The translations under genes and the position numbers were made by a program. Positions 58,466 to 63,591 of a stretch of 64,000 bases of DNA are shown here, in pieces. The notes under the pieces were generated by a model that saw nothing but the letters and a program-made list of their open reading frames with translations, had not been told where the DNA came from and did not search any database. This DNA is from Rhodobacteraceae bacterium SB2. Its GTDB lineage: Bacteria > Pseudomonadota > Alphaproteobacteria > Rhodobacterales > Rhodobacteraceae. Each line of letters opens with the position of its first letter. Position 1 is the first letter of the stretch. The stretch is from positions 248,001 to 312,000 of the forward strand of contig LGRT01000013.1 of assembly GCA_001642945.1 (NCBI GenBank), read 5' to 3'.

Positions 58466-59362
58466 TTAGCGCGTTTTCAGCCCGTTTTCCCGCGCTACAA
58501 AATCTACCAAATGGGGCACGTAATCCTCTGGGCCATCGCCACCCATGGCCATGGCACGCGCAAAACTACTTTTCGCGGCATTTCCAATTGGATTTGCAAT
58601 GCTTGCCTCATTGGCCATGCTTTCGAGATAGCGCAGATCTTTGAGCGCGTTGGTCATGGTGAATTTATGGGCCTCACGATTGCCATCCAGCGCGTAACCC
58701 ATAAAGGTTTGATAAAACCCACAATCCATCCGGCTACCGCGGATCACGCTGTCAAAGCGCTTGGCATCAATTCCCATTTTAGCCCCTAAGGCCAGCGCTT
58801 CGGAATACATTGCGGCATAGCCCAGCGATAGAAAATTATTTAGCAATTTCATACGGTGGCCATCGCCAACCGCGCCGATATGCACGAGCGTTGCAGCCCA
58901 GCTTTCGATCACTGGTTTGATCCGCGCAAAAACCGGCTGATCGGCGCCCACCATCGCAGATAGCGCGCCCTCTTCTGCTTGCACCGGCGTGCCTCCTAAC
59001 GGGGCATCCACCATATGAATGCGCTTTGATTTCAAATTTTCTGCTAGTTTTAGGGTGGAGGTGGGGTCGGATGTTGAGCAATCGATGATAACGGCGTTTT
59101 CTGACAGATTAGGGGTGAGTTCCGCGATAATCTGTTCGACCTGAGGCGAACCTGGGGCACAGATGAATACCAGCGTTGAGTCTTTGGCCAGCGCTTCTAG
59201 GCTGCCGGCTTCTTGCGCGCCCAGCGACAGCAGATTTTCAACCGGCACGCGGTTTTTATGCGCGATTACGGTCACAGGATATCCCGCGCGTAAAATATTT
59301 TTGGCCATGCCATGGCCCATCAGGCCCACGCCGATAAATCCAATTTTTTCGTTTTGCTGCAT
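58466..59362 (-). CDS. NAD(P)-dependent beta-hydroxyacid dehydrogenase
   Basis: A 298-residue member of the 3-hydroxyisobutyrate/tartronate-semialdehyde reductase family. Rossmann motif GFIGVGLMGHGMAKNI at residue 8; substrate site DAPLGGTPVQAEEGALS (about 118); catalytic lysine in KLLNNFLSLG (about 172). Substrates may be 3-hydroxyisobutyrate, tartronate semialdehyde or D-glycerate. It is convergent with the DMT gene. Confidence 0.9.
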   Translation of the reverse strand: MQQNEKIGFIGVGLMGHGMAKNILRAGYPVTVIAHKNRVPVENLLSLGAQEAGSLEALAKDSTLVFICAPGSPQVEQIIAELTPNLSENAVIIDCSTSDPTSTLKLAENLKSKRIHMVDAPLGGTPVQAEEGALSAMVGADQPVFARIKPVIESWAATLVHIGAVGDGHRMKLLNNFLSLGYAAMYSEALALGAKMGIDAKRFDSVIRGSRMDCGFYQTFMGYALDGNREAHKFTMTNALKDLRYLESMANEASIANPIGNAAKSSFARAMAMGGDGPEDYVPHLVDFVARENGLKTR

Positions 59363-59509: not shown

Positions 59510-59605
59510 AAAAAAAAGAGACGCTATTTCTAGCGTCTCGAGATACCGAATAATCTGGGAGGATATATTTTCGGTTTTTACGATCTGGGAGGAGGTAGAC
59601 CGTGC
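59510..59605 (-). ncRNA. Predicted cuckoo/CcsR-type small RNA with CCUCCUCCC anti-SD motifs
   Basis: On the minus strand three hairpins follow one another. The first (59603-59580) has a 7-bp stem ACGGTCT/AGATCGT and a 10-base loop ACCTCCTCCC. The second (59575-59545) has a 6-bp stem ACCGAA/TTCGGT, with CCTCCC in its large loop. The third (59539-59518) is a perfect 9-bp stem GAGACGCTA/TAGCGTCTC with a GAAA loop followed by eight U: a Rho-independent terminator. Tandem loops with CCUCCUCCC and a terminator are the hallmark of the CcsR (Rhodobacter) or cuckoo sRNA family, which are stress-induced and are thought to mimic anti-Shine-Dalgarno sequence. Here no DUF1127 gene is upstream. The 5' end is not known. 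Confidence 0.78.
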
Positions 59606-59622
59606 TCTATTGCTACCATATT

Positions 59623-59639
59623 TTTCTGCACCGCAGAAA
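59623..59639. promoter_or_regulatory. Palindrome upstream of the predicted sRNA
   Basis: TTTCTGC and GCAGAAA are exact inverse complements separated by ACC, 18 bases upstream of the sRNA (minus-strand sense). A third half copy (ATGCAGAAAA) lies at 59661. It could be an operator for the sRNA or part of the 5' leader. Confidence 0.4.
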
Positions 59640-59789
59640 TACTTATTTTGAATTGCTGCTATGCAGAAAAATCATAGCTCATACATAATCATCCGTGGTT
59701 TTGTGCAGATAGGGGAAGGAATGCGTGAATTTTATGCAGCGAAAACTTTTATCTGGGTATGTGCGAATTTAGCGCGCAAGCCTTCGGGC

Positions 59790-59808
59790 GGATCTGCTGC
59801 GCAGATCC
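59790..59808 (-). other. Hairpin downstream of the methyltransferase gene
   Basis: GGATCTGC and GCAGATCC form a perfect 8-bp stem with a 3-base loop, about 65 bases past the methyltransferase stop. No U-run follows, so termination is uncertain; it may protect the mRNA 3' end. Confidence 0.5.
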
Positions 59809-59871: not shown

Positions 59872-60924
59872 TTAGGTGATGAGGTATAAAGAATTGAGCG
59901 GGTGCTTGATATTAATTTTCTGCACCTCAGAAAACCCTGCCTCGGCGCAGAGGTTGCGCAACACAGAATCGGATAGACCCACCGTTCCCATACCTTCTCC
60001 GCCCTGCCACATTGAGGTGGTCATACAAAAATGTAGACTGATGCCCAATTTAAACACGCCATACGGGCCTGAATTATCAACCGGATCTTCTGTGGCTTCG
60101 ATATCCATCAGCAAAAACATCCCATCCTGGGCCATAGATTGTTTCAGGGTTCTTAAGCCAAGCGCCGGGTTTGGCAGATCGTGAATTAAATCAAACGTGG
60201 CGACAATATCATATTGGCCCGGGCTGCCTTCATCCATATTCCAATGTTTAAATGTGATATTACGGTCAACGCCAGCCTCTTTTGCGTTGACGCCGGCGTG
60301 TTCTATATTTGGCAAGAATGCATCATAGCCAATAAATTCTGACTCGGGAAATAGCTTCGCCAACTCAATCGTGGACCTGCCCGTACCGCAGCCAAAATCG
60401 GCAAATCTGGCGCCTTTTTTTAAGCGCTGAGTCAACGCTGGGATATGGGGCAACCAATCTTTTACCAAGAAATTACGATAGCGCGCGCAGCCCGTGTGAT
60501 CCAGCGCCTGCCAAAGCGCTGGCGGATAATCTTCAAACCCGACGCCGCCACCAGATTTGAAGGCCTCGCGCAGCTTCTCATAGGGCAATAACGCGCTGTT
60601 CAGCAATTTAAAGGCACCATATTGGGCAAAGCGGCCGCCGTCTTCCACCAATAGCTGTGCTTGATCTGGGCTTAGCCAGGCTTCGCGCGTGGCTTTATCA
60701 AACATCACATAGCCGCTGAGCACGATCCCGTGCAGCCATTCGCGAACATAACGTTCGTTTAATTGCAGGCGCGCTGCCAGTTGCGCTGAGGTAGAGCGCC
60801 CGTGTGTGTGCAAATCTTTAAAAAGCCCCAGTTCAATACCAAGACTGCACAGCCGCACTGAGACGGCCCCCGCCATATCCCTTCCGGCTTGTTCCAACAG
60901 GGCTTTGGGTTTTGTATCGCTCAT
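59872..60924 (-). CDS. Class I SAM-dependent methyltransferase with N-terminal winged helix
   Basis: A 350-residue protein. The N-terminal 85 residues form a winged-helix/dimerisation segment (SAQLAARLQLNERYVREWLHGIVLSGYV), as in plant-like O-methyltransferases and the Rv2258c group. The C-terminal Rossmann fold has motif I FADFGCGTGRS (about residue 170) and a later VATFDLIHDLPNP. The substrate is unknown. It stands alone on the minus strand. Confidence 0.86.
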   Translation of the reverse strand: MSDTKPKALLEQAGRDMAGAVSVRLCSLGIELGLFKDLHTHGRSTSAQLAARLQLNERYVREWLHGIVLSGYVMFDKATREAWLSPDQAQLLVEDGGRFAQYGAFKLLNSALLPYEKLREAFKSGGGVGFEDYPPALWQALDHTGCARYRNFLVKDWLPHIPALTQRLKKGARFADFGCGTGRSTIELAKLFPESEFIGYDAFLPNIEHAGVNAKEAGVDRNITFKHWNMDEGSPGQYDIVATFDLIHDLPNPALGLRTLKQSMAQDGMFLLMDIEATEDPVDNSGPYGVFKLGISLHFCMTTSMWQGGEGMGTVGLSDSVLRNLCAEAGFSEVQKINIKHPLNSLYLIT

Positions 60925-62199: not shown

Positions 62200-63591
62200 T
62201 TACAAAGACGCTAAAAACTTGGACACTTCTTGTTGAAACACTGGCCATCCGGCATCTTGTTCCAAAATAAGATGGTTTGTTGAGTCAAGCGGCACAAAGC
62301 GGGCATTGGGCATTTTATCTGCCATTATCTGAGATTGATCCATTGGTACGCGTTGATCGCCGCGGCTATGCATGATCAATGTTGGCAGGGTGATCTGCTC
62401 TAAGCGGTTGGTCACATCAATTTCGGCATTCACCCGAGAGATTGCGGCCGCATTTTCTGCGCTGGTGCTCAGTTGCATCAACCGATCAAACGCATCTTTT
62501 TCCGCCTGGTTCGAATCGGGAATCATAGTGTTTGCAAAAAACTGCCGGAAGGCCGGGATATCAGAGTCCCACCCGGTTTGAATCATCTGAATTTCCAAGT
62601 CAGTTTGCGATGGGTTGGCGGATGGTCGCTTATTGGCGCCTTGCGCAAACCCGCCTAAGAAAATTAAACCCTTGACGCGCTCGGGATGGCGATATGCAAA
62701 TTCAATCGCCGAGGCGCAGCCTTGCGAAACACCAAAGAGCACGCATTTTTCATCTTGAATGGTGTTTGAGACCGCCATGATATCATCTACAAACGCGTCA
62801 AATGATATTGTTTCCGGGTGGCGCTCTGACAGCCCATTACCGCGTTGATCAAAGCGCAGCAATTGATGCTCAGAAGAAAGGTTTTCGAAAATATGGCGCC
62901 ATAACGGGCTGCGCCAATCAGCATCCAGATGTGTTACAAAATTTGGCGATTTTAAAAGCACCGGGCCCTGCCCCAAACTGGCCATGGCAATTGCGCAGCC
63001 ATCGGCACTTGTACAATAGCTGATTCGCTGATCGAGCTGTTTTCCCAAAATTGCGCTGCGCGGATGGCTTGGATTAAAATCTGGCGCGCTCATAAAGCAT
63101 GCAATTGGACGGTCTATATTTTTAAGCCGTTGAAGACCTTGGGCATCAAAGGCCTGTTGCGCCTGGGTTGACATTTTGCCGATGCAGTGCCCAGAGGTGC
63201 AGATAGATCCCGGTTTTGAAATACTTTCCAACCGCGAGGCGATATTGACGGTAGATCCGAAAACATCCCCTGCCAATTCTATAACTGGTCCATGATGCAG
63301 CCCAATCCGATACACGAAAACATCGCTGTTGGGATCTTCATCGCAGAAGGCTTTCACCCCGCTTAGCAGCGCTGTTGCAAAATCAAATCCGTCTTGAGCA
63401 GCCTCAAAAAGGCATAAAAACCCATCCCCGGTGGTTTTAATCAAGCGTCCGTGATAGCGGGTTAAAAGCGGATGAAGCAGCCTAGTATGTAGGGTTTGTT
63501 GGCGGGTGATGACGCGGTGTTCATCCCTCTCAACCAGCCGCGAGAAGCCAACAATATCCGAAAATAAAACGGTTTTTTCCTGCGTGTCCAT
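62200..63591 (-). CDS. Class III adenylate/guanylate cyclase fused to an alpha/beta hydrolase
   Basis: A 463-residue two-domain protein. Residues ~1-165 form a class III cyclase: metal Asp12 in LFSDIVGFSRL, Asp56 in KTTGDGFLCLF, and the transition-state residues Asn116 and Arg120 in GSTVNIASRLE, so it looks active. Residues ~185-463 form an alpha/beta hydrolase with nucleophile Ser289 in FGVSQGCAS, an Asp in HSRGDQRVP and the His in DSTNHLIL. No membrane segment. How the hydrolase domain relates to cAMP signalling is unknown. A second cyclase gene, cut by the window end, lies just upstream. Confidence 0.9.
   Translation of the reverse strand: MDTQEKTVLFSDIVGFSRLVERDEHRVITRQQTLHTRLLHPLLTRYHGRLIKTTGDGFLCLFEAAQDGFDFATALLSGVKAFCDEDPNSDVFVYRIGLHHGPVIELAGDVFGSTVNIASRLESISKPGSICTSGHCIGKMSTQAQQAFDAQGLQRLKNIDRPIACFMSAPDFNPSHPRSAILGKQLDQRISYCTSADGCAIAMASLGQGPVLLKSPNFVTHLDADWRSPLWRHIFENLSSEHQLLRFDQRGNGLSERHPETISFDAFVDDIMAVSNTIQDEKCVLFGVSQGCASAIEFAYRHPERVKGLIFLGGFAQGANKRPSANPSQTDLEIQMIQTGWDSDIPAFRQFFANTMIPDSNQAEKDAFDRLMQLSTSAENAAAISRVNAEIDVTNRLEQITLPTLIMHSRGDQRVPMDQSQIMADKMPNARFVPLDSTNHLILEQDAGWPVFQQEVSKFLASL

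Follow-up and report, generated by a model that had tools for sequence, protein, structure and literature searches.

A predicted small RNA with two anti-Shine-Dalgarno loops and candidate PhaR operators, one of three siblings in Rhodobacteraceae bacterium SB2

PHB is a carbon store and a natural plastic. Control by PhaR of a small RNA (sRNA) with a CCUCCC core is already known from MmgR, an alpha-r8 RNA of Sinorhizobium meliloti that acts in PHB metabolism (PMC12559287, PMC12542648, PMC8401924). The mmgR promoter contains a PhaR site bound in EMSA and including TGCACCGCAG (PMC12542648), and its control depends on a dyad within -35 and -10 (PMC8401924, a review). Two palindromes flank the -35 of phasin promoters in S. 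meliloti, where pyc and ppdK are also PhaR targets, and the PhaR site of Rhodobacter sphaeroides is CTGCNNNGCAG (PMC12542648). Alpha-r8 RNAs contain one UUUCCUCCCU stretch (PMC12559287), and their single anti-Shine-Dalgarno motif lies in the first loop (PMC7143759). Other relevant RNAs are the CcsR RNAs, processed from the ccaF1 transcript with its RpoHI/HII promoter (PMC10253847), and NfeR1 of the alpha-r14 group, controlled by LsrB and NtrC (PMC10746234). In Brucella, VtlR activates AbcR2 and three DUF1127 genes and has the motif CAATGCAGCCATGCA (PMC12595884). The trxB-vtlR arrangement is described as well conserved in Alphaproteobacteria (PMC7486931), and LsrB is reported only in Rhizobiales, from a tree including R. 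sphaeroides (PMC11975290). Within the literature searched, a set with few subscription papers and without the original cuckoo/CcsR papers, PhaR was not joined with NfeR1, CcsR1, cuckoo RNA or alphar14. Nor was a link between PhaR and DUF1127 found in the texts examined, where the matches were words of the 'pharmacology' type or reference lists.

The locus considered here lies in the window, by which we mean the whole 64-kb stretch of DNA that was analysed (Table 1). A sequence-only reading had proposed a small RNA gene with CCUCCUCCC-type loops that does not lie beside a DUF1127 gene, and our results support this proposal. The two hairpins with CCTCC-type loops, the 9-bp terminator stem and the U8 tract on the minus strand were all found where that reading had placed them, and the upstream gene is indeed a methyltransferase, with an Rv2258c-like HTH besides. 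The reported absence of a DUF1127 frame was borne out, in that no window ORF of at least 40 aa matched three DUF1127 proteins from this genome (phmmer). A palindrome 18 bases upstream of the earlier 5' end is present as well; a second, farther upstream, had been overlooked. The inner of the two palindromes is best read as a candidate operator rather than as part of the RNA.

Table 1. Features of the predicted sRNA locus, in window coordinates
Feature	Coordinates	Strand	Basis
Predicted sRNA, about 95-100 nt (5' end approximate)	59510..59609	-	R1 covariance match and fold z
Hairpin 1, loop with CCUCCUCCC (CCTCCTCCC as DNA)	59581..59602	-	Fold; sibling pair changes
Hairpin 2, loop with CCUCCC(AG)	59545..59575	-	Fold; sibling pair changes
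Intrinsic terminator, 9-bp stem (59539-59518) and U8 (59517-59510)	59510..59539	-	Fold; sibling pair changes
-10-like hexamer TATGGT, weak, no good -35	59615..59620	-	Assigned by eye
Inner box TTTCTGCGGTGCAGAAA (CTGCN3GCAG, PhaR-type operator), directly upstream of the -10-like hexamer	59623..59639	-	
Upstream (outer) box TTTCTGCATAGCAGCAATTC, containing CTGCATAGCAG	59650..59669	-	Invariant 20/20
Upstream gene, methyltransferase with Rv2258c-like HTH, not DUF1127	59872..60924	-	
Downstream gene, 3-hydroxyisobutyrate dehydrogenase-like protein	58466..59362	-	

The predicted RNA has anti-Shine-Dalgarno loops of nine and six letters and folds at -25.6 kcal/mol as compared to -13.1 +/- 2.7 kcal/mol for shuffled sequences (z -4.7; none of 200 as good). 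Paired CCTCC motifs (spacing 20-60) followed by T6 occur at a single place in the window, the sRNA site, with two overlapping starts. Rfam searches at the gathering score returned no match in the 64-kb window. The best sub-threshold match, mir-3036 (E 0.012), corresponds to the inverted-repeat pair of boxes and was taken as chance, and a match to sroB (22 bits vs 44) consisted mostly of the terminator. Elsewhere in the window, positions 62200-63591 (minus strand) encode a fusion protein with an adenylate/guanylate cyclase domain and an alpha/beta hydrolase domain.

The sRNA locus was found in all four genomes of the genus. In the alignment of these four close genomes, on which the counts rest, 89 of the 93 positions in the RNA body and 36 of the 37 in the two boxes (upstream box 20/20, inner box 16/17) were invariant, as compared to 248 of 312 in the flanks (142/181 and 106/131) and only 3 of 12 in the stretch from the -10-like hexamer to hairpin 1. 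Conserved boxes and a conserved RNA body separated by a variable stretch are the pattern of a putative promoter plus its RNA.

Three sibling sRNA genes were found in the genome: the window gene (sRNA1) and genes on contigs C24 (sRNA2) and C31 (sRNA3). The C24 gene is a box-bearing locus of like build, and a genus search with it yielded the third. Sibling 2 was present in two of the four genus genomes and sibling 3 in all four; the sibling copies occupy other gene neighbourhoods than the window gene, and the boxes of the third are degenerate. This third sibling (L098/L249, C31:111669-111771) follows a DUF1127 gene of the same strand at a distance of approximately 2.5 kb. A covariance model (R1) built from four sequences of the C31 gene only gave the C24 gene 79.8 bits and recovered the window sRNA site at 33.7 bits (E 1.2e-5), its sole match in the 64 kb at E up to 1.

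Base-pair changes among the siblings support the predicted structure. Nine sequences were aligned to R1 (alignment A7), an alignment that, being fitted to the model, leans towards its own structure; with that bias, 94% of cells fell in standard pairs, both-side changes occurred in 15 of 28 pairs (shuffled 10.8; 3 of 500 as high), and the covariation score was 0.583 as compared to 0.239 for shuffles (none of 500 as high) and at most 0.121 for slid versions. One measure of five, the number of further pair types, fell below the shuffles (20 vs 23.6). Both-side changes were seen in five of the eight pairs of hairpin 1, in eight of the nine pairs of the terminator stem, and in the two outer ones of the 11 pairs of hairpin 2, three pairs of which are unformed in the window gene under the R1-fitted model. 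Stems thus vary among siblings, and the loops are constant as CCUCC(U)CCC. An earlier MAFFT alignment (A3) was dropped, with misregistered stems, 55% of cells paired and a better score for a version slid by 2; the copy of sibling 2 in genus genome G003 (L094), identical in its RNA letters, was excluded from both A3 and A7.

A model of the nine sequences detected the three genes in the genome at E up to 0.01 and, with stricter filters on, had matches in 8 of 394 family genomes. Two of these belong to the genus itself, two have sRNA-like genes with upstream boxes (G326 and G215, one of which has two such boxes), and four matched at phasin 3' ends. Some 800 bp from an sRNA-like gene of another genus lies a TPP riboswitch (L256 601-699, minus strand).

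We then turn to the boxes. Two CTGCNNNGCAG sites lie in the sRNA promoter region; the window holds four, as compared to 1.04 expected from base composition, of which two are the sRNA boxes and a third lies at 59794-59804. On the other strand, the core of the inner box reads TGCACCGCAG, as in the EMSA-bound mmgR site of S. meliloti. A scan with the sigma-70 consensus found no promoter at the window sRNA. Upstream of the C24 sRNA, reading of the sequence revealed TTGACC 17 bp from a -10-like sequence, with the inner box in that spacer. The third CTGCN3GCAG of the window, within GGATCTGCTGCGCAGATCC, stands between the sRNA and the methyltransferase gene and is not intact in two genus genomes, and a near-box, TTTTCTGCACCTCAGAAAA, occurs at 59916-59934 inside the end of the methyltransferase gene.

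Genome-wide, TKCTGCNNNGCRGMA returned 32 rows representing 21 distinct sites, as compared to two rows for the reversed control. Fifteen of the 21 could be assigned by reading: this sRNA (two), the C24 sRNA (two), five DUF1127 genes, phasin (two), the phaC/phaZ intergenic region, a phaA-like thiolase, bdhA and pyc. One more site coincides with the opening codons of the longest ppdK frame, and the remaining five are in or near unconnected frames or were not read. PhaR itself is encoded in the genome (TIGR01848, 147 bits, above cut-off; also PF07879). PhaR, PhaC, PhaZ and 3-hydroxybutyrate dehydrogenase pass their NCBIfam cut-offs, and phasin passes that of Pfam. The thiolase (acetyl-CoA acetyltransferase) passes the general acetyl-CoA acyltransferase cut-off but misses the PhaA one; Pyc and PpdK were identified from fragments below the full-length cut-offs.

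BLAST of promoter plus RNA against 295 family genomes matched nine genomes in ten rows, one of which is the window itself. The other nine are short stretches that correspond by sequence to the boxes, seven of them at phasin genes, and the whole sRNA was not found outside the genus in these 295 genomes. A combined operator and CCTCC pattern matched in 33 of 394 family genomes; by eye, only two, both of the genus itself, resemble the window gene, and the other matches look like chance or coding DNA.

On balance, we consider it probable that the locus encodes a PhaR-controlled, PHB-responsive, trans-acting anti-Shine-Dalgarno sRNA, regulated like MmgR and made as its own transcript, one of three siblings. 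The direct basis of this reading is structure, covariation, siblings and boxes, PhaR control of an anti-Shine-Dalgarno sRNA being known elsewhere, in MmgR; we infer transcription, PhaR binding, the direction of control and the targets. PhaR would block transcription by binding the CTGCN3GCAG box that immediately precedes the -10 region. Accumulating PHB would draw PhaR to the granules, and phasin, the PHB enzymes and the sRNA would then be made together. The CCUCC(U)CCC loops of the sRNA would pair with Shine-Dalgarno sequences of the GGGAGG type and block translation, and the phaR mRNA, as a likely target, would close a feedback loop.

Predicted duplexes are consistent with this last step. 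The phaR gene has UUGGGAGG before its GUG start, and against a background of 47 long window ORFs, with starts set by our own rule, only 3, 0 and 1 of the 47 reached as good a duplex energy as phaR for siblings 1, 2 and 3, respectively. Poor partners were phaA and phaC, and also phaP for siblings 1 and 3 (34 and 40 of 47 as good), with a middling value for sibling 2 (8 of 47). For sibling 3 only, bdhA was as good as phaR (3 of 47), so phaR is not unique as a duplex partner. GGGAGG precedes phaR at six of the nine starts found among 11 loci examined, as compared to 3 of 47 window genes, and was present at all four loci picked by the RNA model vs two of the five others. On these predictions, the phaR mRNA is a plausible target of the sRNA.

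All 12 distinct phasin 3' regions, obtained from 17 phmmer matches after repeats and those with less than 120 nt of 3' sequence were dropped (4 picked by the RNA model, 8 from promoter-box searches), contain CCTCC within 170 nt past the stop codon; in 11 it falls no more than 50 nt past the stop and in one (L030) at 105. Among window genes, the corresponding numbers were 2 of 47 within 170 nt and 0 of 47 within 50 nt. By eye, most of these phasin regions have a terminator-like stem after CCTCC. Phasin 3' regions, including L252 2401-2495 (minus strand), are possible sources of 3'-end derived sRNAs.

The boxes had first been ascribed to LsrB alone, and the PhaR reading came to be preferred because PHB genes carry them. 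It is still conceivable, if rather unlikely, that their reader is a LysR-type activator resembling LsrB/VtlR, which would place the sRNA in a redox- or sugar-responsive regulon together with DUF1127 genes, like AbcR2 of Brucella. VtlR's joint activation of AbcR2 and three DUF1127 genes (PMC12595884) argues for such a regulator. The sequence-only reading had described the sRNA as outside the DUF1127 context. This is true of its position but misleading otherwise, as the upstream box is common to five DUF1127 promoters. With up to two mismatches, the 19-mer TGCTGCATAGCRGCAATTC has six genome sites, one at this sRNA and one at each of the five DUF1127 genes that pass the cut-off. Allowing three mismatches adds five further sites (11 rows in all vs 2 for the control), among them the phaC/phaZ box and the thiolase box. 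In the genome, PF06568 has five matches over the cut-off and two under it (19.8 and 12.4 bits), none on this contig, and the two sub-cut-off ones had no TGCTGCATAGCRGCAATTC box among the listed sites.

The Brucella VtlR motif overlaps the PhaR box, and the boxes of sRNA1, 2 and 3 are identical to it at 11, 12 and 11 of 15 positions. DUF1127 upstream stretches are enriched in scores of at least 12/15 (10 of 34; controls, 1 of 67). The L009/L251 locus (G000:C17:40312 region) has a DUF1127 box that reaches 13/15, and its DUF1127 gene is followed by two CCUCC hairpins. A relaxed box lay upstream of 16 of 29 DUF1127 loci, a subset of the matches obtained in 41 genomes, as compared to 4 of 29 distant control stretches. 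Two or more CCTCC motifs lay downstream of 7 of the 29, and six of these seven have the relaxed box. Serial CCTCCTCCC motifs together with a DUF1127 homolog, detected by phmmer and missed in both cases by a regular-expression search, were seen in a Loktanella locus (L111) and a Rhodobacteraceae MAG (L210), possibly as long CcsR-like arrays.

Several observations weigh against a LysR-type reader. PMC11975290 reports LsrB in Rhizobiales only, and no LysR domain was found in the six proteins around the genome's single trxB, which instead have PurK, AIR carboxylase, Hsp20, AsnC/Lrp, laccase-like and methyltransferase domains. Such a regulator would also leave the boxes at phasin, phaC/phaZ, thiolase, bdhA and pyc unexplained. 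The phasin box itself scores 13/15 on the VtlR motif, and 15-mer identity therefore cannot separate PhaR from VtlR-type regulators. Given the 11/15 match of the upstream box of the window sRNA, the protein that reads this particular box is uncertain, and the box may belong to a LysR-type regulator rather than to PhaR.

The sequence-only reading had further assigned the RNA to the CcsR/cuckoo family and had proposed a covariance search as a check. The assignment was not supported: in a search confined to this RNA, the CcsR1 model (RF02791, cut-off 65.3 bits) gave no match to the window sRNA up to E 10, so that it falls below the family threshold, and by the Rfam test the window sRNA is not a member of the CcsR family. 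The alpha-r14 model (RF02344, ar14) gave it 13.6 bits as compared to a cut-off of 58.8, and the alpha-r8/MmgR model (RF00519, suhB; cut-off 41 bits) no match up to E 10. The Rfam models are not blind, since ar14 scored 112, 106 and 103 bits on loci of Ensifer aridi, S. meliloti 4H41 and Rhizobium mongolense, and CcsR1 reached 33.7 bits, under its cut-off, on the genome's DUF1127 locus with two CCUCC hairpins. As to arrangement, the genome's PF06568 matches all lie on other contigs, away from the DUF1127-adjacent (CIN1) placement of CcsR, and two anti-Shine-Dalgarno loops are present here in place of the three CCUCCUCCC hairpins of alpha-r14.

Two kinds of true kinship with these families can be considered in this light, both improbable in our view. 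The RNA could be a CcsR/cuckoo or alpha-r14 RNA no longer accompanied by a DUF1127 gene and induced from RpoH-type stress promoters. It has the same loops and the same build of two hairpins and a terminator, the ar14 scores of siblings 2 and 3 are 28.2 and 29.2 bits, and the genome does hold the CcsR1-scoring DUF1127 locus just mentioned; however, all of these scores remain under the family cut-offs, and the window copy has no CcsR1 match. Equally doubtful is that the RNA is an ortholog, and not a look-alike, of MmgR (alpha-r8, Rfam suhB). A PhaR-type box beside the -10, as in mmgR, the CCUCCC core, and scores of 27.9 and 27.1 bits for siblings 2 and 3 on RF00519 (cut-off 41) would fit orthology, but the window copy's lack of a suhB match and its two anti-Shine-Dalgarno loops, as compared to one in alpha-r8, do not. 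Finally, a position between two co-oriented genes would suit a sequence with no trans function that merely closes the methyltransferase transcript, as its 3' end or terminator, or serves the following gene as a leader, but this is very improbable given two operator-like boxes directly before the RNA, siblings in other neighbourhoods, stems that covary around constant loops, and the 3 of 12 invariant positions between hexamer and hairpin 1.

Similar arrangements of box and RNA were seen beyond the genus. A scan that required a box yielded at least 118 loci and at least 119 regular-expression matches, at least 12 of them with a T-run in the chosen tail stretch; among these 12 or more, some are GC-rich or non-alphaproteobacterial and probably chance. 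Among the matches listed, four Jannaschia loci, an uncultured Rhodobacteraceae locus (L152) and a Zongyanglinia locus (L192) have CTGCN3GCAG just upstream of CTCCTCCC, and no DUF1127 homolog was found by phmmer in these 8-kb loci. All six fail the T-run filter and their terminators are thus uncertain; two further loci that fail it (L183 and L158) are nonetheless ar14 by Rfam. Also among the matches listed, the ar14 genes of S. meliloti 4H41, E. aridi and R. mongolense have, by eye, CTGCN3GCAG between the putative -35 and -10. Because the scan demanded a box, the ar14, Jannaschia, L152 and L192 loci are examples and not a frequency.

A broader idea may be put forward tentatively, and we regard it as more doubtful than not. 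The alphaproteobacterial CCUCC-loop sRNAs (alpha-r8, alpha-r14, CcsR-like and the window one) could as a group be outputs of PhaR. The state of PHB, acting via PhaR boxes, would then set the pool of anti-Shine-Dalgarno RNA, including phasin mRNA 3'-end hairpins. This pool would feed back on phaR translation and be tied to DUF1127 RNA-binding proteins by a common box. If PhaR control of the window sRNA is true, PhaR wiring of the MmgR kind is found again in an sRNA family not grouped with MmgR by Rfam, and would also take in the 3' ends of phasin genes and the start site of phaR. This suggests a testable link between carbon storage and CCUCC-type sRNAs, and a coupling of carbon storage to protein production. 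It would also mean that a cuckoo-like RNA apart from DUF1127 genes can be tied to them by regulation and not by position.

The window sRNA thus resembles several known systems in part. With CcsR1-4/cuckoo/CIN1 it has in common the CCUCC loops and a terminator, but differs in having a putative promoter region of its own, no DUF1127 neighbour and no Rfam match. Like NfeR1/alpha-r14, it has repeated CCUCCUCCC anti-Shine-Dalgarno loops on variable stems (PMC10746234), although with two such loops where NfeR1/alpha-r14 has three. The Caulobacter alpha-r8 RNAs SisA-D (sponge CrfA) are similar in that multiple sibling CCUCCC sRNAs occur per genome with a link to the carbon state (PMC12559287), while the window sRNA has no match to the alpha-r8 Rfam model. 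MmgR of S. meliloti, itself alpha-r8, is 77 nt with one anti-Shine-Dalgarno stretch and differs in this respect, but has a PhaR (AniA) site at -35/-10, a CCUCCC core and an intrinsic terminator, as predicted for the window sRNA.
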